Below the pieces are notes generated by a model. It had not been told where the DNA came from. It worked only from the letters and a program-made list of their open reading frames with translations, and did no database searches. Below, one piece after another: positions 22,582-32,739 of a DNA stretch of 64,000 nucleotides; position 1 is the first letter of the stretch, and each line of letters opens with the position of its first letter. Source of the stretch: Thermus brockianus (lineage in GTDB: Bacteria > Deinococcota > Deinococci > Deinococcales > Thermaceae); contig NZ_CP016312.1 in the NCBI RefSeq assembly GCF_001880325.1, positions 1,860,001-1,924,000 on the forward strand, read 5' to 3'. The position numbers and the translations under genes are program-made.

Positions 22582-23784
22582 CTAGGCGGCGGGGACCCGT
22601 TGCCCTTCCCCCTCGTTTTCCAGACGGCAGGCGGGGCGGAGCCTGAGGCCTAGGGCCGTGCCCAGAAGGGCGAAGACACCCCAAAGGGGCCCGTGGAGGC
22701 TAAAGGAGGCGGTGCCCCCCAAGTAGGCCCCGATGTTGCACCCCGCGGCAAGCCTTGCCCCGTAGCCCATGAGCACGCCCCCCAGGAAGACCCCGAGGTG
22801 GGTGGTCCAAGGGATCCGCCAAAGGTTCCGGAAGCGGAGCGCCCCACCCAAAGCGGCTCCCAGGAAGGCCCCCAGGAAGAGGCCAAAGTTGGTGACGCTG
22901 GTGGCGTCCTGGAGAAGGCTTTGCTGTAGCTTTTCGGCGAAGGCGGGGTTGTGGAAGAGGGCCCAGTCTAGAACCCCAAAGCCCAAAGCCTCCGCCAACT
23001 TTCCCCCCCACAGGGCAAAGGCCGCCGTAACCCCCCAAGGCCGGCCTTGGAGGAGGAGCAGGGCTAGGCTTCCCAAGGCCAAAACCGCCGCGCCGGTCAC
23101 CAAGCTCCAAGGGCCCCAAAGGGGATGGGTGGCCTCCCGGCGAAAGAGGGGCTCCACCCTTCCCCGCCGCTTCCTCTCCACGGCAGCCACCCCTAGGTAG
23201 AGGGCCAGGAGGAGGAGAAGCCAAAGGACGAGGCCCAGGTATGGGGTGGGGAACCAGGTAAGGGCGCTCCCCACGGAGAGGGCGGGAAGCCCCTGCCAAA
23301 AGGGAAGGTGGTAGACCCCCAGCAAGGAACCCACCATGAACCCCAAAAGGACCAGCACCCCGCGCGTGTCCCCGCTACCCGTGTGGTAGAGGGTTCCCGA
23401 GGCGCACCCGTCCCCAAGCTGCATGCCCACCCCAAAGAGGAAGGCGCCCACCAGGAGGGCTACCCCCAAGGGCGCCACGAACCCTTGCACCGGCTGCCCC
23501 AAGACCTCGCCCTGGGAAAGGAAAGGGAAGAAGAGGAGGCTCGTGAGGGCAAAAAGGAGAAAATGGGCCCTAAGAAGGCGGCTTTCCCCTAAGAGGAGGA
23601 AGCGGCGAAAGCCGGAGGCGAAGCCGAACCTGGCGTGGAACAGGGCTAACCCCAGGACCACCGCTACCCAGAAGGCCAGGAACAGCCTGGCACCCGAACC
23701 TTGCCAAATAAGCCAGGATAGGCCCCCGGCCATGAGGGCAAAGGCCAGGAGGGGCCAAGGTTGGGGGCGCAACGGGCGCTCCAT
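22582..23784 (-). CDS. YeeE/YedE-family transporter, TsuA-like
   Basis: A 400-residue membrane protein with about ten or more hydrophobic segments. The two conserved cysteine motifs of YeeE/YedE proteins are present: GDGCASGTLYHTGSG and AAGCNIGAYLGG. Relatives transport thiosulfate (TsuA) or other sulfur compounds. Its place next to a tetrathionate-reductase-like operon supports a sulfur substrate. The start at 23784 follows from the promoter: the longer upstream ATGs lie in or before the -10. Confidence 0.88.
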   Translation of the reverse strand: MERPLRPQPWPLLAFALMAGGLSWLIWQGSGARLFLAFWVAVVLGLALFHARFGFASGFRRFLLLGESRLLRAHFLLFALTSLLFFPFLSQGEVLGQPVQGFVAPLGVALLVGAFLFGVGMQLGDGCASGTLYHTGSGDTRGVLVLLGFMVGSLLGVYHLPFWQGLPALSVGSALTWFPTPYLGLVLWLLLLLALYLGVAAVERKRRGRVEPLFRREATHPLWGPWSLVTGAAVLALGSLALLLLQGRPWGVTAAFALWGGKLAEALGFGVLDWALFHNPAFAEKLQQSLLQDATSVTNFGLFLGAFLGAALGGALRFRNLWRIPWTTHLGVFLGGVLMGYGARLAAGCNIGAYLGGTASFSLHGPLWGVFALLGTALGLRLRPACRLENEGEGQRVPAA

Positions 23785-23791
23785 GCCCTCC

Positions 23792-23819
23792 ATATTACCC
23801 ATGAGCTTATTAGAGTCAA
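23792..23819 (-). promoter_or_regulatory. Leaderless promoter of the YeeE/YedE gene
   Basis: TTGACT (23819-23814), a 16-base spacer and TAATAT (23797-23792) on the minus strand, then seven bases to the ATG. A good match to the sigma-A consensus. Confidence 0.7.
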
Positions 23820-23878: not shown

Positions 23879-24433
23879 TTAGAAGGCGAAGTCTTCCAGG
23901 TACCAGCGCTCCGTCTTCTTGTGCTCCTCCTTGGGGTCCATCTTTTCCGAGTGGGCCAAGAGGACAAAGAGCTTCCGCCCGGGGACGATTTCCACGTCCG
24001 TGGGTTCCCCGGTTTTCAGCTTCCGGCTGAACTCCACGCTCCACTTGCCCCCTTCGTAGCTGGCGTTGGCGGCCAGGATAGAGTTCTTCCCGCCCTCCTT
24101 CTCGTCCGGGGAAGGGGCCCCGGTGCGCTTCACCTGGTACATGTCCAAGGCCACCAGCTTGCCGCCCTCCATGTAGAAGAGGTACTGGTCAGCGCCCTTT
24201 TTCTTGTCGCTCTTTTCCGGCAGGAAACCGATGCCGATCCAGCCCTTGCTTTCGCCCTCGAGGGCCAGATAGAGCGTATCCCCCACCACGCTCCAGTAGA
24301 GCGTGATGCCGCTTTTCTCGTGTTTGTAGCTCTTGGCGTATTCCCCAGGGGCGATCTTCCCGTCCACCTTGGGCGCCTGCGCCAGCGCCACGCCTAGGGC
24401 CAAAACCATGAGACCTACGATGCCTCGCTTCAT
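23879..24433 (-). CDS. Exported DOMON-domain protein
   Basis: A 184-residue periplasmic protein. Signal peptide MKRGIVGLMVLALGVALAQA, then a DOMON-type beta sandwich (KVDGKIAPGEYAKSYKHE, WSVVGDTLYLALEGESKGWIG, WSVEFSRKLKTGE). DOMON domains bind heme b or sugars. Heme-b subunits of some molybdoenzymes, such as ethylbenzene dehydrogenase gamma, have a similar fold. As last gene of the molybdoenzyme operon it is a candidate electron-transfer subunit; heme binding is inferred only. Confidence 0.8.
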   Translation of the reverse strand: MKRGIVGLMVLALGVALAQAPKVDGKIAPGEYAKSYKHEKSGITLYWSVVGDTLYLALEGESKGWIGIGFLPEKSDKKKGADQYLFYMEGGKLVALDMYQVKRTGAPSPDEKEGGKNSILAANASYEGGKWSVEFSRKLKTGEPTDVEIVPGRKLFVLLAHSEKMDPKEEHKKTERWYLEDFAF

Positions 24434-24445
24434 CTTGCACCTCCC

Positions 24446-24889
24446 TTAGTCCCTTATGGTGATTCCCACCACGAAGGCTACAGCGCCCACGTGGGTATGG
24501 GCCAAAGCCGCCAACACCGGCCGGCTTCCCTCAAAGGCCTCCAAGAAGCCCTGAAGGGTGAAGAGGCTTACCTCCGCATCCTGGGCGTTCCAAACCAGGT
24601 GGAAGTAAGCCCCCGCCACCCCTGTAGCCACGCTTACGAGCATCCATAGGAGGAAGGGGTAGCGCACCCACTTCCCCCGGTGGAAGAACATAAGGAGGGT
24701 TAGGGGGAAGCCTACCAGGGAAACGTAGAAGGGGATCCTGCTCTGCCAGCTTTCCGTCCAGTGGTCCAGCACCCAGTGCTCCATGCCGTAGAAGGCAAAC
24801 CCCACCATGGCGATGAGAAGGAAGATGGTGCGGAGGAACTCAAGAAGCCTTTCCTCCTCGGTCTTGGCGCGAATAAGGGCTTCAATCAC
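24446..24889 (-). CDS. Four-helix membrane protein B of the reductase operon
   Basis: A 147-residue protein with four hydrophobic segments, clearly paralogous to the next gene upstream. Shared motifs are HWTESWQSRIPF after helix 1, GAYFHLVWN at the end of helix 3 and SRPVLAALAHTHVG in helix 4. The histidines in FHL and THVG are conserved in both copies and could ligate heme. It starts with GTG behind a GGAGG that overlaps the previous stop. I do not recognise the family; a quinol-oxidising membrane anchor is a guess from context. Confidence 0.7.
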   Translation of the reverse strand: MIEALIRAKTEEERLLEFLRTIFLLIAMVGFAFYGMEHWVLDHWTESWQSRIPFYVSLVGFPLTLLMFFHRGKWVRYPFLLWMLVSVATGVAGAYFHLVWNAQDAEVSLFTLQGFLEAFEGSRPVLAALAHTHVGAVAFVVGITIRD

Positions 24890-24899
24890 GGCGCACCTC

Positions 24900-25337
24900 C
24901 TAGCGGGCCCGGTAGATGGAAAGGAGCCCCGTCACCCCCATGTGGGTGAAGGCCAGGGCTGCCAGCACCGGGCGGCTTCCGGCCATGGCCTCCATGGCCG
25001 CCTCAAACTCCCACGCCACCTCGCCCTCAAAGTTCCAAAGCAGGTGGAAGTAGGCGCCCAAAACTCCCGTGAAGACCGAGGCCCACATGGTGAGGAGGAA
25101 GGCCAGGCGCACCCAAGGGGTCTTCCGGTCAAAAAGGACCCAAAGGGTGAAGACAAAGCCCGGTACGGCCACCAAGAAGGGGATCTTGCTCTGCCAGCTC
25201 TCCGTCCAGTGGCCCAAGAGGAGGAGCTCTAAGGGGTACATCACCCAGCCCACCAGGCAGAGGAGGAGCATCACCAGGCGGATGAATTCTAGCGCCCACT
25301 GGGTCGGGTTGCTTGCGCTTCTAAAAGCGGGTATCAC
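24900..25337 (-). CDS. Four-helix membrane protein A of the reductase operon
   Basis: A 145-residue paralogue of the neighbouring downstream gene, with the same four-helix layout and motifs HWTESWQSKIPF, GAYFHLLWN and SRPVLAALAFTHMG. It starts with GTG at 25337 behind AAGGAGG. It follows the catalytic subunit gene, in the position where NrfD-type membrane anchors usually sit. No NrfD-like protein is encoded here, so this pair may replace it. Confidence 0.7.
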   Translation of the reverse strand: MIPAFRSASNPTQWALEFIRLVMLLLCLVGWVMYPLELLLLGHWTESWQSKIPFLVAVPGFVFTLWVLFDRKTPWVRLAFLLTMWASVFTGVLGAYFHLLWNFEGEVAWEFEAAMEAMAGSRPVLAALAFTHMGVTGLLSIYRAR

Positions 25338-25388
25338 CCTTCACCTCCTTACCCCCATCATGACCTTATCACAGGTATTGGGGAGGTT

Positions 25389-25416
25389 TGTCCCCCCGGG
25401 TCTCCCCGGGGGGACA
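25389..25416. repeat. Long perfect hairpin after the catalytic subunit gene
   Basis: A 12-bp perfect stem (TGTCCCCCCGGG / CCCGGGGGGACA, four-base loop) just beyond the catalytic-subunit stop. It lacks a T-run on either strand, so it is more likely an mRNA-processing or stabilising hairpin than a full terminator. Confidence 0.55.
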
Positions 25417-25419
25417 GCC

Positions 25420-28400
25420 TTACACCGGCAGCAGGTTCACCTTGGTTTCGTAGAAGACCACGCTACCGCCCACCACGTCCGTCAGGGCGGTGTCCTTTAG
25501 GTACGGGTCCAGGCGCATGGCGGCGTTGGCGTGCACCCCCGTGGCCCGCCTGGGGTCGCCCTTCACCACCTGGCCGTTGATGACCAGGTCGCTTGCCCCA
25601 TAGGCCCAGTGGCCCCAGCCCAAGGGGAAGGCCACGCACCCTGGCCTCAGGCCCTGCACCACCTTCACCCGGCCCACCATGGGCTTCTTGCCAAAGGGCC
25701 CCAGGTCCCACTCGCCTTTGGGGTTGGTGGCGGAGACCACCTTGACCATCTGCCCGTCCTTCAGCCCAAGCCGCTCGGCGTCCGGGGCGCTCACCAGGAT
25801 CTCGTTTTCCGGCTTCACCGCCAAGAGCCAGTAGTTGCTGATGGTGCGGCTCTTGGTCTGCAGGATGCTCCGGTGGGTCAGGAGGGTTAAGCCGTAGCCG
25901 GGGTCCCGGAGTTGCCGCCCCAGAACGTCCTGGTAGGGCGGGAAGTAGGTGGGAAGGGGCCAGTAGGGCTTCCCGGTCATGGGGTGGAGGGAGAGGGCCT
26001 GCTTTTCCAGGAAGAGGTTGACCTGCCGGCCATACCGGTTTGCCACCAGGTCGTTGGCGGCGTAAGCCTTGGGGAACTCCTGGAACCGCCCACCCCGGTT
26101 GAGGAGGTAGACGGTACGGCGGAAAAGCCCTTCGTCGCCGATGGCCTCACGCCAGCGCTTCTCGTCAAAGACCGAGGGAGGAAGGTGGCGGCGGGCTTGG
26201 CGGAAGACGGTGAGCTCCCTCTCGTCCGCCTCGGGCAGGGCCTCGGAGCCGTCGGCCTTCTCCCCGAAGGCCAGGTTGGCCGCAAGCTTCAGGTAGAAGT
26301 GGTCGGGGTGGCTGAAGGGCATCCCGTTAGCGAAGCCTTTGGCCCCACAACCAGGCAGGCCCAGGTGCTCACCCAGGGCGAGGAGGAAGCTTTCCAGGGA
26401 GATGGGCATCTTTTGCCCGAAGACCTCCACCTCCTCGGGGATGGGTGGGATGGCGGGCTGCCGCACGGGCTGGACCTTCCAGATGATGGAGGGGTGGCTT
26501 CCGTGGAACTCCCAGCGCTCCAGGTAGGAGAGGTCGGGGATGATGTAGTCGGCGTAGAGGTAAGTGTCCCCCACCACGATGTCAAAGGCCACGATGAGGG
26601 GGATCTTGTCCGGGTCCAGCATGGCCTGGATCTGCTCGTGGCCGCCCGGCAGGGCGTAGGCGGGGGAGCCCATGTAGTGGAAGAGGATCTTGATGGGGTA
26701 AGGATACCCCTGGGCGGCGGAGGGGAGGATCTCCTGATAGACGTCGGAGGCATGGGGGTACCAGGGGCGCTTGGCGGGGAAGCCTTGGAAGAGGGTGGTG
26801 TCCTCGTACTTCACCTCGTGGCGGATAAGGGAGATGCCGAAGGGGTTTAGGGGCCTGGGGTGGAGCTTGCTGAGGACAAAGGGACCTCCCGCCTTGCCGC
26901 CGGTGATGTCGTAGGTGCTGGCCTGGACGAAGCCACCCTGGTGGTCCACGTTCCCCAAGAGGGCGTTCACGGTGAACCAGGCGAAGCAGTTGTAAAAGCC
27001 GTTGGTGTGCTGGCTGGCGCCCCGGTGTACGTCCACCACCGCCTTCTTGCCGTACTGGGCGAGCTTCTCCGCCAGGAAGCGGATGTCCTCCTCGCTTACC
27101 CCGGCCAAGGCGGCCCAGGTCTTCACCTGGTGGCGGAAGGCTTCCTCCTTGATGAGCGTGAGGGCGCTCTTCACAGGGGTGCCCTGGAAGACGGTATCCA
27201 CGAAGAGGTCGCCGAAAACCGCCTGGTTTTCGTCGTTGGGGTTGAAGGCCACGGGCTTGCCCTGGGCTAGGACCACAGGGGCGTCCAGTTCCACCTCCTT
27301 GTCCCCCACCTTGGCCTTGGGTTTGGGAAGGCCCAGGTCGCTTGCCCGCAGTAGCCGTTCCGGCTTGCCGTCTTTCAGCTTCACAAGCCAAGCGGCGTTG
27401 GTCCAGCTGGCCTCGCCGATGGCTTTGGCCGCCGCCTTGTTGGCGGCGGAGAGGAAGCGGCTGTCCACCTTGCCCCACTCCAGGAGGAGGCGGATGACCC
27501 CAAGGGCGATGGCGGCGTCGTGCCCCGGCTTGGGCGCGATCCAGCGGCTGGCTCCTTTCACTGCCTTTTGCGCCCGTGGGTCAACCACGGCGTATTCCAG
27601 CTCCCCACGGCTTGCCCGCTCCGTGATCCAGCCCACGCGGAGGGGTGGCCCGTAGTTGCCCTCAAAGACGTTGGCCCCCACGAAGACCACGAAGCGGGCT
27701 TTGGAAAGGTCTGCCTGCCAGTAGAACTTGGCCCCGCCCGACCAGGAGAGCTTGCCCGTGGCGTCAAAGGTGGGCTGCTCGCTCATGGCCTTGCCGGTGA
27801 AGTACATGGAGCCCTGGCAGACGGTGGTGTGGCCATGAAGGTTTACCGTGCCGAAGCTTTGCCCGAAGAACCAGCGGATAAACTCGGAGCGGCCCGCCTT
27901 GAGCCGGCCCCAGGCGAAGACCACTTGGTTGTTCTTGGGGCCCAGGTCGGGATGGTTGGGGTCAATGAGGGTGTGGAGGTAGTCCTTGAAGTCTTCCTTG
28001 AACTTGGCCACCAGGGCTTTCTTTTTCTCCCGGTCCTTCTCGGCCCAGATGGCCCTTACCGCCTGGGCCATGCGGTTCATGACCTCGGGGTCCCGCAGGG
28101 CCCAAAGCTCCTTAAGCCCGGGGTAGTGGCGCTCGTCCCCCAGGTGGGCGAAGAGCTTGCCCCCCTCCACGATCTCCTTCACCGCCTGGTGGAAGGGGAT
28201 TTCCTCCCACTTGCCGCTTCCCCTGGGGCCGGCCCGCTTGAGCACCCTGCGGATGCGGTAGGGATCGTAGGCGGTCTGAATACCCGCCTGGCCCTTGGGG
28301 CAAAGCGCCCCGTCCACCTGGGCCAACGTGTCCACGGGGGTGTTGAGGGGCAGGTGGGGGCGGAAGGTCCAGGGGGAGAGGGGGTTGCCGTCAATCTTGC

Positions 28401-28605
28401 TCGCCACGCCCTCGTAGAGCTTCACCTTGATGGGGCAGCCGGTGTTGCACTGGAGGCAAGAGGAGTAAATGGTGTTTTCGGGTAGCTGGATCTCGTAGGC
28501 CTCCATGCCTTGGGCGCTGGCCTCCTGCAGGCTAAAGGCCAAGGGGCCCAAGAGGGCACCTGCGCCAGAAAGCTTCAAGAGCTCACGCCGGGAAAGCTTT
28601 TCCAT
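25420..28605 (-). CDS. ttrA: Tetrathionate reductase-like molybdopterin subunit
   Basis: A 1061-residue DMSO-reductase-superfamily enzyme, exported by the Tat route (SRRELLKLSG at residues 6-15). The [4Fe-4S] ligands are C50, C53, C57 and C102; the likely Mo ligand is Cys263 in TTVCQGS. Size and layout resemble the TtrA/SrrA/ArrA group. The adjacent TtrB-like subunit and the divergent sensor genes favour tetrathionate or another sulfur oxyanion as substrate. The ATG at 28605 follows AGGAGG by five bases. Substrate is not proven. Confidence 0.82.
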   Translation of the reverse strand: MEKLSRRELLKLSGAGALLGPLAFSLQEASAQGMEAYEIQLPENTIYSSCLQCNTGCPIKVKLYEGVASKIDGNPLSPWTFRPHLPLNTPVDTLAQVDGALCPKGQAGIQTAYDPYRIRRVLKRAGPRGSGKWEEIPFHQAVKEIVEGGKLFAHLGDERHYPGLKELWALRDPEVMNRMAQAVRAIWAEKDREKKKALVAKFKEDFKDYLHTLIDPNHPDLGPKNNQVVFAWGRLKAGRSEFIRWFFGQSFGTVNLHGHTTVCQGSMYFTGKAMSEQPTFDATGKLSWSGGAKFYWQADLSKARFVVFVGANVFEGNYGPPLRVGWITERASRGELEYAVVDPRAQKAVKGASRWIAPKPGHDAAIALGVIRLLLEWGKVDSRFLSAANKAAAKAIGEASWTNAAWLVKLKDGKPERLLRASDLGLPKPKAKVGDKEVELDAPVVLAQGKPVAFNPNDENQAVFGDLFVDTVFQGTPVKSALTLIKEEAFRHQVKTWAALAGVSEEDIRFLAEKLAQYGKKAVVDVHRGASQHTNGFYNCFAWFTVNALLGNVDHQGGFVQASTYDITGGKAGGPFVLSKLHPRPLNPFGISLIRHEVKYEDTTLFQGFPAKRPWYPHASDVYQEILPSAAQGYPYPIKILFHYMGSPAYALPGGHEQIQAMLDPDKIPLIVAFDIVVGDTYLYADYIIPDLSYLERWEFHGSHPSIIWKVQPVRQPAIPPIPEEVEVFGQKMPISLESFLLALGEHLGLPGCGAKGFANGMPFSHPDHFYLKLAANLAFGEKADGSEALPEADERELTVFRQARRHLPPSVFDEKRWREAIGDEGLFRRTVYLLNRGGRFQEFPKAYAANDLVANRYGRQVNLFLEKQALSLHPMTGKPYWPLPTYFPPYQDVLGRQLRDPGYGLTLLTHRSILQTKSRTISNYWLLAVKPENEILVSAPDAERLGLKDGQMVKVVSATNPKGEWDLGPFGKKPMVGRVKVVQGLRPGCVAFPLGWGHWAYGASDLVINGQVVKGDPRRATGVHANAAMRLDPYLKDTALTDVVGGSVVFYETKVNLLPV

Positions 28606-28614
28606 AGGCACCTC

Positions 28615-29454
28615 CTACACCAAGTAGTAGACCCGGGGCTTGGTCCCCGCCTCTTCCTTGAGGCGCATGACGTTGGGTTTCTTCACCAGTTCGGCCACCA
28701 AGGACTGGGGGTCTTCCAGGTCCCCGAAGTACGTGGCCCGGCCGATGCAGGTCACCACGCACTGGGGCAAGAGCCCCCGCTCAATGCGGTGCAGGCAGAA
28801 GTGGCACTTGCGCACCTTGTCCATGGGACCCGCCTCGTCTTCCCGGTCCACCTTCTTGCCCCACTCGTAAACCGGTAGGGTTTCGTAGGGCATCTTCCCT
28901 TGGCCTGGGGTGTTTTCCGTCCAGAAGTAGCCGTCGTCCTTGTGGCGGGAGTTGTAGGGGCAAGCGGGCACGCACTTTTCGCAACCCACGCAGAGCTCGT
29001 AATCAATCTCTACGATGCCGTCCTTGCGCTTCCAGGTGGCGTCGTAGGGGCAGGCGGGGACACAAGGGGGCTCGTCGCACTGCATGCAGGGCCGGGGGAC
29101 GAAGCGGTACGTGACGTGGGGGTACGTGCCCACCTCCTCCTCGCTCACCGGGCGGTAGACCACGCCCGGGGGGAGGCGGTTTTCCGCCATGCAACTGACG
29201 GTGCAGGCGTGGCAACCCACGCACTTCCGAAGGTCAATGACCATGCCCCACTTGCGGTTGGGATTCTTGAGCGCCCGCTCCAGGTCCTTTTGCATGCGCA
29301 GGAGGACATCCTCCTCCGCCCCGCTTTCAGACGGAGCCGCCATGGGCACGCCTTGGGCCAAGCCCGGGGCCACCACGGAGGCGAAGATGGCGCTCGCCAT
29401 CTTGGCGAGAAAGCGCCGGCGGTCCTCCGCACCGGTGAGGGGTTCTTTTTCCAT
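28615..29454 (-). CDS. ttrB: Tetrathionate reductase-like [4Fe-4S] electron-transfer subunit
   Basis: A 279-residue ferredoxin-like subunit with cysteine groups for four [4Fe-4S] clusters: [35 protein letters not shown] and CHFC...CVVTC. A Tat-like RRRFLAKM lies near the N-terminus, consistent with export as a complex with the catalytic subunit. It is the first gene of the operon; the ATG at 29454 is placed by AGGAGG eight bases upstream. Confidence 0.9.
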
Positions 29455-29491
29455 CTGCCCCACCTCCTTTCCCTTCCCAAACTAGGGCCCT

Positions 29492-29595: not shown

Positions 29596-30429
29596 ATGCG
29601 AAAGCTCCTGGCCCTTCTTCTCCTTGCCGCCTGCGCCAGGCCGCCCGAGGTGCACCTAGGCCCCCCGTATGCCAAGGAAGCGGAGGAGGGCGGGGTGCGC
29701 ATCGTGGTGGCGGGGATGCGTTCTCCCGAGGAGGCAGAGCCTTACCGGGAGTTTTTAGGGGGCTTAGAGGAGCTTCTGGGGGAAAAGGTGGAGGTGTTTG
29801 GGCGCCGCACCTACCGGGAGGTCCTGGAGGTGTTGCGCCAAGGGGAGGCGGAGCTTGGCTTCCTCTGCACCTTGGCGGCGGGGCTTGGGGTAGAGGAAGG
29901 GTTTGTGCAGGTCTTGCTGGCGGCGGACACGGTGGTGCCTTACCAGAGCCTTGTTGTGGTGCGGGAAGATGCGCCCTACCAAAGCCTGGCCGAGTTAAGA
30001 GGGCGCCCTTTCGCCTTTACCGACCCGCTTTCCAACACGGGGCATGCGTGGCCTAGGCTTCTTGCACGGGATTTGGGGGAGGATTTCTTTGCCCGGGCTT
30101 TTTTCACCTATGGCCACGACAGGGCCCTTTGGGCCGTACGGGAGAGGTTGGCGGAAGGGGCGGCGGTGGATAGGGTGGTCTATGCCACGTTGGGCATCCA
30201 GGGGCTCAGGGTCCTGGCCATGGGCCCCGCCGATCCCCCTCCGCCCGTGGTGGTGCCCAAGGACCTTCCGGAAAGGGAAAGGGAGCGGCTTATGAGGGCG
30301 CTCCTTGCCCTGGCAGCCAGGCCCGAAAGCACAAGGGTCCTAAGGGCCTTGGGTCTTAGGGGGTTCCGCAAGGCGGAGGACGCCCCTTACCGGTCGGTGT
30401 ACCGAAGGGCGCGGGAGGTGCTTCCGTGA
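29596..30429 (+). CDS. PhnD-like periplasmic binding lipoprotein
   Basis: A 277-residue lipoprotein (signal LLALLLLAACA, lipobox cysteine near residue 14) of the phosphate/phosphonate-binding PhnD superfamily. Landmarks are VVPYQSLVVVREDAPYQSL and FTDPLSNTGH. In TtrS-type kinases a PhnD-like domain is fused to the kinase and senses tetrathionate. Here it is a separate protein whose stop overlaps the kinase start, so it is probably the ligand-binding part of a three-component sensor. Confidence 0.82.
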   Translation: MRKLLALLLLAACARPPEVHLGPPYAKEAEEGGVRIVVAGMRSPEEAEPYREFLGGLEELLGEKVEVFGRRTYREVLEVLRQGEAELGFLCTLAAGLGVEEGFVQVLLAADTVVPYQSLVVVREDAPYQSLAELRGRPFAFTDPLSNTGHAWPRLLARDLGEDFFARAFFTYGHDRALWAVRERLAEGAAVDRVVYATLGIQGLRVLAMGPADPPPPVVVPKDLPERERERLMRALLALAARPESTRVLRALGLRGFRKAEDAPYRSVYRRAREVLP

Positions 30430-32113
30430 GGCTTGGGGCCCAGCTTCTCTTGACCGTGCTCTTGGCGGCCACGGCCACGGGGGGGGCCCTCATCCTGGGT
30501 GGCGGCGCCTTCCTCTACGCTGAGGGGGAACAGGCTTTGTGGCAGCAAACCCGCTCGGCGGCCCGGGACCTCGCCACCTTGCTTACGGACGACCTCCTTC
30601 TCCAGGACCGCTTGGCGGTGTGGGAGAAGCTTGGGGCGGCTAGGGAGCGCTATCCGGGCTTTGTGTACGCCTACGTCCTCTCCCCCAAGGGGGAGGTGTT
30701 GGCCCATACCTTTACCGAGGGGGTACCGGAGGCCCTCCTCGGCTTGGCAGGTGAGCGGACCTTGCGTCTTGGGGGCAGGTTGGTGTACCAGGGAGAGGCC
30801 CCGGTGTATGGGGGGGCGGCGGGGGTGGTGCGGCTAGGCCTGGCCCAGGACCCCTTAAGGGAGGAGCTGGCGCAGGTTCTGCGCACCGGGTTTTTTGGCT
30901 TGCTTTGGGCCGTGGGGCTTGGGGTAGGGCTCGGTTACCTCCTTCTGGAGCGGGTGCTGGAACCCCTCAAGGAGATGGCGGAGCGGGTTTCCCTCCTGGG
31001 CAAAGGGGGGAAGGTGGCCTTTCCTGAGCCCAAAAACGAGCTCGGCGCCCTGGGGCGTGCCCTCAACCGCATGGGGGAGGAGGTGGAAAGGCGGGAGCGG
31101 GAACTCACCCTCTTAAACCGCCTTTTGGCGGAAAGCCAAGCCCTAAGGCTGGATGAGCTGGCTGAGCGGGTGCTTTCCCTCTTGGTGCGGGAGCTTGGCT
31201 TTTCCTGCGGCGATTTCTGGGTGGAGGGGCGGGTGGTCCACTGCCGCGCCTGCCAAGCCTTGTGCCCCTTGGGGGGTGTGGAGGGGCTGGCGGAGGAAGC
31301 CTTGCGGGAGGGGCGGGTGGTGGTGGGCCAAGGGGGGTAGCGGTGCCCGTTCCCCCCAAGGCCGCTTTGGTCCTTTACGGGAAGCCCAAGGTGGATGAGG
31401 CTTGGCTTACGGGTTTCCTCACCGCCCTTTCGGGGCCCTTGGCCACCGCCTTGGAAAACGCAAGGCTCTACAGCCTTTTGGAGGAAAAGGAGAGGCAGCG
31501 GGCCGAGCTCTTAAAGGCCTGGCTTAGGGCCCAGGAGGAGGAAAGGGCGCGCATCGCCCGGGAACTCCACGATGAGGTGGGCCAGGCCCTCACCGGCTTG
31601 ATCCTGGGCCTCGAGGGCCTCCCGGGGGAAAGGGCCCTGGCGCTCAAGGAGTTGGCCCGCTTTACCCTGGCCGAGGTGCGGCGCCTGGCCTTAGACCTTA
31701 GGCCTTCCCTCTTGGACCACTTGGGGCTGGAGGCCGCTTTGGTGCGGTACGTGCGGGAATTTGCCGACCGCACGGGGATTGAGGTGGACCTTTCCTTCCA
31801 CCTCCGCCAGCCTTTGCCCAAGGAGCTGGAAACCGTGGTCTACCGGGTGGTGCAGGAGGCGCTGACCAACGTGGCCCGCCACTCGGGAAGCCCCCGGGCG
31901 GCGGTGGGGGTCTTGGAGGCGGAAGGGGAGGTACGGGTCTTCGTGGAGGACGAGGGCCGGGGGTTTGACCCTAGGGCGGTGGGCCCCGGGCACCAAGGCC
32001 TTTTGGGCATGCGGGAGCGGGTGGAGCTTTTGGGGGGGCGGTTTCTTTTGGAAAGCGCTCCTGGCGAGGGCACCCGGGTACAGATTAGGCTTCCTTTAGA
32101 GGTGGTGGCGTGA
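30426..32113 (+). CDS. Sensor histidine kinase, TtrS-like, frameshifted
   Basis: Two overlapping frames make one kinase of about 562 residues. Part 1 (from the GTG at 30426): transmembrane helices near 8-30 and 155-173, a HAMP segment, and a GAF-like region with Cys261, 273, 276 and 280. It stops at a TAG right after G6 (31332-31337). Part 2: HisKA_3 box RIARELHDEVGQALTG, then ATPase motifs EALTNVARHSGS and DEGRGF. One extra G, or a -1 slip on the G-run, joins them. The four cysteines could bind an Fe-S cluster. It overlaps the regulator gene by GTGA. Confidence 0.82.
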
Positions 32114-32739
32114 TCCGGGTGGTCTTGGTGGAGGACCATATCCTGGTGCGCTCGGGCATCCGCCATCTTCTGGAAGCCCGGGGGCCCATCCGGGTGGTGG
32201 GGGAGGCGGGGAGCGGCCGGGAGGCTTTGTCCCTCTTGGAGCGCCTCGAGGCCGACCTGGCCATCCTGGACGTTTCCCTTCCCGACTGCACCGGCATTGA
32301 CCTATGCCGGACCCTGAAGGCCCGCTTTCCGAATCTCCGCCTTCTCGCCCTTTCCATGCACGAAGACCCCGAGTACGTGCGGGGCTTTTTGCAGGCGGGG
32401 GGTGAGGGTTACGTGAGCAAGGCGGCGGTGGACCACGAGCTCGTGGACGCCGTTTTGGCGGTGGCCCGGGGAGAGCGGTACCTCAACCCGAGCCTGGCCA
32501 TGCGCCTGGCCATGGAGATGGTCCAGGGGGAGGTGCAGGAGGAAAGCCTTTCCCCTCGGGAGGAGGAGGTGTTGCGCCTCCTCGCCCAAGGCCTCTCCCA
32601 CAAGGAGGTGGCCGAGCGCTTGGCCATCTCGGAAAAGACCGTGGCCACCTATCGGGAACGGGGCATGGAGAAGCTTGGCCTGAAAACCCGGAGCGACCTC
32701 TTGCGCTACGCTGTGCGCCGGGGCTGGCTTTCGGGTTAA
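32110..32739 (+). CDS. NarL/FixJ-type response regulator, TtrR-like
   Basis: A 209-residue two-component regulator. The receiver domain has the acidic pair EDH (8-9) and phospho-acceptor Asp54 (AILDVSLPDC); a LuxR-type HTH follows (LSPREEEVLRLLAQGLSHKEVAERL). GTG start overlapping the kinase stop. It most likely activates the divergent reductase operon. Its end overlaps convergent ruvC by four bases. Confidence 0.9.
   Translation: MIRVVLVEDHILVRSGIRHLLEARGPIRVVGEAGSGREALSLLERLEADLAILDVSLPDCTGIDLCRTLKARFPNLRLLALSMHEDPEYVRGFLQAGGEGYVSKAAVDHELVDAVLAVARGERYLNPSLAMRLAMEMVQGEVQEESLSPREEEVLRLLAQGLSHKEVAERLAISEKTVATYRERGMEKLGLKTRSDLLRYAVRRGWLSG

Follow-up and report, generated by a model that had tools for sequence, protein, structure and literature searches.

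An S1-S2-DOMON triad beside a TtrC-less TtrBA-like cassette in Thermus: a candidate autonomous membrane redox module

Two paralogous four-helix membrane proteins, here termed S1 and S2, and a secreted DOMON protein form a conserved triad that in Thermus brockianus follows a TtrB/TtrA-like molybdoenzyme pair. The data obtained from the window, a stretch of 64,000 nucleotides, and from related genomes are best explained as a whole by an autonomous three-subunit membrane redox module beside which, in a Thermus clade, a TtrBA pair without a C subunit is sited; the probability of this reading is roughly 0.45. S1 and S2 would assemble into an eight-helix heterodimer of a four-helix family, a site around H43 and H98 at the periplasmic face would bind quinol or heme b, and electrons would be handed to the secreted DOMON cytochrome and from there to periplasmic acceptors, in the direction of flow that we infer. 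A TtrBA-like cassette with an ArrX-type sensor system, having lost TtrC, would have come to adjoin the triad in the Thermus clade, where the triad probably supplies TtrBA with electrons, either directly or via the DOMON protein.

Gene organisation of the locus

The features of the locus, in window coordinates, are the following.

22582..23802, minus strand: YeeE/YedE-type sulfur transport protein
23879..24433, minus strand: secreted DOMON protein with the fold of the ethylbenzene-dehydrogenase gamma subunit and the cellobiose-dehydrogenase (CDH) cytochrome
24446..24889, minus strand: S2, four-helix membrane protein paralogous to S1, 147 aa
24900..25337, minus strand: S1, four-helix membrane protein, 145 aa
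25367..25394, minus strand: conserved S1 leader (GGGACA, about 10-13 nt, ATACCYRTGWTA), a candidate promoter
25389..25416, minus strand: 12-bp GC-rich hairpin immediately 3' of ttrA, an inverted repeat that every aligned ttr+ genome contains
25420..28611, minus strand: TtrA-like molybdopterin catalytic subunit with a Tat motif; type 1, no TtrC
28615..29463, minus strand: TtrB-like four-cluster iron-sulfur subunit with an RRxFL Tat motif (best PDB matches PsrB, E=3.7e-46, and ArrB, E=5.9e-43)
29596..30429, plus strand: ArrX/AioX-like periplasmic oxyanion-binding lipoprotein, divergent from ttrB
30426..32113, plus strand: sensor histidine kinase, with a frame disruption at a G run near 31331
32110..32739, plus strand: LuxR-type response regulator

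The genes of the minus strand are read in the order TtrB-like, TtrA-like, S1, S2 and DOMON, followed by the YeeE-type transporter, and the sensor lipoprotein, histidine kinase and response regulator constitute a divergent set upstream of ttrB. Loci nearly identical to this one were found in Thermus. The initial annotation, which had described a TtrB/TtrA-like pair followed by two paralogous membrane proteins and a DOMON protein, is thus confirmed, all five genes lying on the minus strand at the coordinates given above. Its designation of the group as an operon is less certain: the 82-nt gap between ttrA and S1 contains the 12-bp GC hairpin and S1 is preceded by a conserved leader of its own. 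The hairpin, located between ttrA and the S1 leader (z -2.9), is not called a terminator because it is devoid of a T run. The leader extends from about 58 to about 30 nt upstream of S1 and is common to most genomes with and without ttrBA as well as to G071, which belongs to another genus, and a diverged version occurs in G001 and G002. Since a sigma-70 promoter scan found no match at S1, this element is termed conserved rather than a proven promoter.

The triad occurs independently of TtrBA

A profile of S1/S2 matches 32 of 111 Deinococcota genomes, 31 of which hold both genes and one (G030) a single distant relative only. S1 and S2 are in tandem in every genome where both are resolved, and the DOMON gene lies directly downstream of the pair in 28 of 29 loci, the 29th stopping at a contig edge. 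Although the pair had initially been assigned to a molybdoenzyme, the search of other genomes revealed that it mostly stands without an adjacent molybdoenzyme, the outcome named in the initial annotation as refuting its proposal, TtrA adjoining S1 in only 10 of the 32 positive Deinococcota genomes. Five genomes (G004, G012, G019, G023 and G024) have the triad but yield no TtrA match at E<=1e-100, and in two (G004 and G007) the triad is next to ruvC, at the place that the 7-kb regulator-ttrBA cassette occupies in the window. Purifying selection on S1 and S2 is similar with or without ttrBA, at dN/dS of about 0.10-0.15 (medians for S1 and S2 of 0.149 and 0.125 with ttrBA and of 0.095 and 0.101 without). 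Judged from this distribution, from the similar selection and from the leader shared by both groups, S1-S2-DOMON is a module of its own, independent of TtrBA; that most triad genomes are without TtrBA at the same time counts against the preferred reading.

No match to S1 and S2 was found on plasmids. In most of the Thermus genomes examined, including ones without ttrBA, the YeeE-type transporter gene adjoins the triad, and it does not do so in other genera; this link to the triad is an association only. Two Trueperaceae genomes encode proteins with ten CXXCH motifs in the vicinity of the triad (L011:11984-14257 and L012:14170-16413).

The TtrBA-like cassette and the missing TtrC anchor

The TtrB-like and TtrA-like subunits score best against TtrB and TtrA, respectively, in NCBIfam, with 181 bits (equivalog cut-off 416) and 403 bits (equivalog cut-off 1750), which leaves the TtrA-like protein outside its equivalog. 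The pair resembles the TtrABC tetrathionate reductase in its TtrB- and TtrA-like subunits with Tat motifs and differs from it in these scores, far under the cut-offs, in the absence of the C subunit and in a sensor that is ArrX-like instead of TtrS-like. No NrfD gene is present in the cluster, as originally proposed, and a search of the genome turned up no TtrC relative; the NrfD-type matches encountered in it belong to alternative complex III and to PsrC of PsrABC.

Type-1 clusters, such as that of the window, carry no C gene between the B and A genes. In contrast, type-2 Thermus clusters, whose TtrA is about 70% identical to type 1, retain the order TtrB-TtrC-TtrA, and TtrC was found in exactly six Thermus genomes, those with type-2 TtrA. 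A C subunit was also seen in five examined genomes of other genera, and the order B-C-A extends to haloarchaeal (Halomicrobium) and Azospirillum clusters and to Citrobacter (middle protein of 336 aa, unannotated). As read from these gene orders, the type-1 TtrBA cassette is one that has lost TtrC.

Type-1 TtrA is found in 12 genomes, in ten of them beside the triad, in G020 on separate contigs and in G071 at another locus (L119). The triad is present in 12/12 genomes with type-1 TtrA compared with 2/15 genomes that have other TtrA types only (P=5e-6, unadjusted and with no phylogenetic correction, a value that overstates the case because the genomes are related, the correlation of C-less TtrBA with the triad being that of one clade). 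Use of the triad by TtrBA is plausible because of this distribution, and service of the triad to TtrBA is a reasonable, if unproven, extension of the preferred reading.

The same co-occurrence, in which G071 is included, opposes the view that the neighbourhood is accidental, the TtrBA cassette having been inserted between ruvC and a resident triad, with TtrBA either soluble and fed by cytochrome c or borrowing PsrC. Several observations would suit such an origin: in G004 and G007 the triad borders ruvC without the cassette, the cassette has its own regulators, S1 is set apart by a separate leader and hairpin, and both PsrABC and alternative complex III are available in the genome. The location of the C-less TtrBA of G071 away from the triad fits it equally, and stands against the preferred reading. 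G024, however, carries remnants of the kinase and regulator genes at the cassette position together with a DOMON frame that is broken too, S1 and S2 being intact (L004 / L082), and these remnants are a case of cassette decay. An accidental neighbourhood is considered doubtful, and the co-opted redox module is retained as the preferred reading.

Conserved residues and predicted topology of S1 and S2

S1 and S2 are about 49% identical. Neither has a family match in Pfam or NCBIfam or a relative by sequence in the PDB, and no paper describing the pair was found in the literature searched. Across 29 genomes the invariant residues of S1 are Glu-37, His-43, Trp-44, Asp-70, Arg-71, Arg-77 and His-98, while those of S2 are Glu-37, His-38, His-43, His-97, Asp-104 and His-131. 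The motifs HWTESWQ, GAYFHL and TH(M/V)G, noted in the initial annotation, are all found in both window proteins, but the histidine of the last motif is not a family feature, since in S1 it is replaced by N or Y in 8/29 genomes. The suggestion that the histidines of GAYFHL and THxG bind heme was therefore half wrong: H98 (GAYFHL) is invariant, whereas H132 (THxG) varies and for that reason was dropped as a ligand, the invariant pair being H43 and H98. These residues, located at the ends of helix 1 and helix 3, respectively, are predicted by the positive-inside rule to face the periplasm.

Each S model displays four long helices and, preceding helix 4, a short one that the predicted topology places in the periplasm. 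A model of the S1-S2 fusion reaches pLDDT 77.2 and pTM 0.64, and that of an in-frame S1-S2-DOMON read-through from a relative pLDDT 75.5 and pTM 0.52; these pTM values are low, and the relative placement of subunits in the fused models is unreliable. The best fold match of S1/S2 (VIA Z 12.4) was to a soluble helical protein, and it was left unused because such a score is ordinary among helical bundles. The low-pTM models, the lack of a significant fold match for S1/S2 and the fact that no heme or quinone site is demonstrable from sequence all weigh against the preferred reading.

NrfD-like anchors such as TtrC, PsrC and ActC consist of two four-helix repeats, a helix count equal to that of the two four-helix proteins S1 plus S2 (PMC8076601). 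Together with TtrBA lacking TtrC and the position of S1-S2 immediately behind it in 10 genomes, this likeness would fit S1-S2 standing in physically for the NrfD/TtrC anchor, as a dedicated replacement that binds TtrB directly. Such a substitute is nevertheless unlikely, and the least likely of the alternatives weighed here: most genomes with the pair have no molybdoenzyme adjacent to it, G071 keeps its C-less TtrBA elsewhere, and the wider relatives of S1/S2 have other partners (helix-hairpin-helix proteins and cytochromes). Moreover, hhalign of S1/S2 against Thermus TtrC returned a probability of 0.1% and no Pfam NrfD match was obtained, so that split-NrfD homology was rejected for want of profile similarity. 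Fold searches with the S1-S2 model gave no NrfD chain among the matches listed, an absence that does not count against an NrfD fold. The shared invariant histidines of S1/S2 at the predicted periplasmic face are a further difference from the NrfD-like anchors.

The DOMON protein

The DOMON protein matches Pfam DOMON with 70.8 bits (cut-off 32.7), which assigns it to this fold, and its EB_dh match in Pfam is also above the cut-off of that family. The model aligns with dopamine beta-hydroxylase (Z 14.3, rmsd 2.7, 139 residues), EbdC (Z 13.7, rmsd 2.9, 156 residues) and the CDH cytochrome (Z 12.0, rmsd 2.9, 145 residues), followed by CBM9 modules (Z 9.0-9.6). The heme b of EbdC is ligated by a lysine and a methionine (PMC8840923). 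Lys-78, Met-165 and His-171 are invariant in 27 sequences of the DOMON protein and are at most candidate heme ligands. The DOMON fold is held in common with EbdC, the CDH cytochrome and CYBDOM, and a W-x-V-x-F-x-R-x-L-x-TG stretch is shared with NXR subunit C. In contrast to the gamma subunit of type II DMSO reductases, the protein is encoded with S1-S2 and not with a type II enzyme.

A wider four-helix family

Membrane subunits connecting the quinone pool to periplasmic enzymes belong to few known families, namely NrfD-like, NapC/NirT-like and cytochrome b types. Sampling beyond Deinococcota uncovered distant relatives of S1/S2, a broader profile matching 72/395 genomes of one other phylum (about 18% of those sampled) and 6/82 of another. 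Four helices and residues H43, G91, G94, H98 and P123 are present across the aligned members, and on sequence grounds S1 and S2 belong to a widespread four-helix family that is absent from Pfam and apparently unnamed.

Two natural tandem fusions represent the doubled form outside Deinococcota (L162:4148-6352 and L118:1-2699). The two-repeat fusion of G487 (308 aa) begins 3 nt downstream of the gene for an octahaem cytochrome c. That of G282 (670 aa) carries an NnrS domain at its C-terminus and lies behind a related multihaem cytochrome, which is truncated at the contig end; the two cytochromes are 48% identical. These neighbours support a redox role for the doubled form, and it is mainly the partners of doubled forms that back a redox function. 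Because eight predicted helices are conserved as a two-protein unit and fused relatives stand behind multihaem cytochromes, a membrane redox module, as the initial annotation had suggested, is a good reading, and its dedication to a molybdoenzyme is the part that is not supported.

A different picture emerges from the single-copy members. In 22 of 25 examined non-Deinococcota loci a single-copy family gene neighbours one for a secreted helix-hairpin-helix (HHH_3) protein, mostly directly adjacent, and these partners, which have no evident redox role, count against the preferred reading. They would fit a family of membrane partners for a secreted binding protein, acting on metal, heme or another ligand or in sensing rather than in electron transfer, the DOMON or HHH protein providing the ligand-binding part. 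DOMON folds also bind sugars, in keeping with the CBM9 alignment, and a Fur-like regulator gene lies directly upstream of S1 in two genomes that belong to one taxonomic order (L088:8197-8667 and L090:10115-10585). The model of the DOMON protein is, however, nearest to heme-type DOMON proteins and dopamine beta-hydroxylase, and the doubled form accompanies multihaem cytochromes in two other lineages, in one of them fused to NnrS; a binding role without electron transfer seems rather improbable. HHH_3 repeat proteins regularly follow the single-copy relatives (L163-L181 and L114-L117).

Returning to the redox module, it is tentatively proposed that the doubled form could be a quinol:periplasmic-cytochrome oxidoreductase of a new type that shares no sequence relationship with NrfD. 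Its partner would be a DOMON cytochrome b in Deinococcota and a multihaem cytochrome c in other lineages, and in Thermus it would have been co-opted as electron donor to a molybdoenzyme that has lost NrfD. If so, the four-helix family would add to the quinone-linking subunits a new type, missing from Pfam, with a concrete two-histidine site.

Sensor and likely substrate

The best PDB match of the sensor lipoprotein is ArrX (E=2.7e-33), with AioX at about 1e-15 and PhnD at 4e-11, and no similarity was detected between it and a TtrS from an E. coli ttr operon. The AioX pocket is formed by Tyr, Cys, Tyr, Ser, Ser/Thr, His and Asp (PMC5908839). These residues are found at matching spacing in the window sensor (counted by hand); as in AioX, the Cys is 18 residues C-terminal to the first pocket Tyr, and the second Tyr follows 25 residues further on. 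In contrast to AioX, ArxX and ArrX, the window sensor adjoins a TtrA-like enzyme and not a classical ArrA or ArxA.

The likeness of the neighbouring sensor to ArrX makes arsenate a possible substrate in place of tetrathionate, and tetrathionate, suggested by the TtrA name alone, was set aside since this sensor argues otherwise. A TtrA-like enzyme has been proposed as an arsenate reductase in Pyrobaculum (PMC9751042), and a TtrB/TtrA-like cluster on a Citrobacter plasmid sits within an ars gene group (L111:4013-9408). The ArrX-like sensor, the Citrobacter context and the Pyrobaculum proposal favour, without proving, an arsenic oxyanion as the substrate. A C-less TtrBA with an ArrX-type sensor would bear on the unsettled matter of how arsenate is respired where ArrAB is lacking. 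Within the sensor system, the G run near 31331 at which the histidine kinase frame is broken differs in length in close relatives, and the break may reflect either an error in sequencing or a true loss of gene function.
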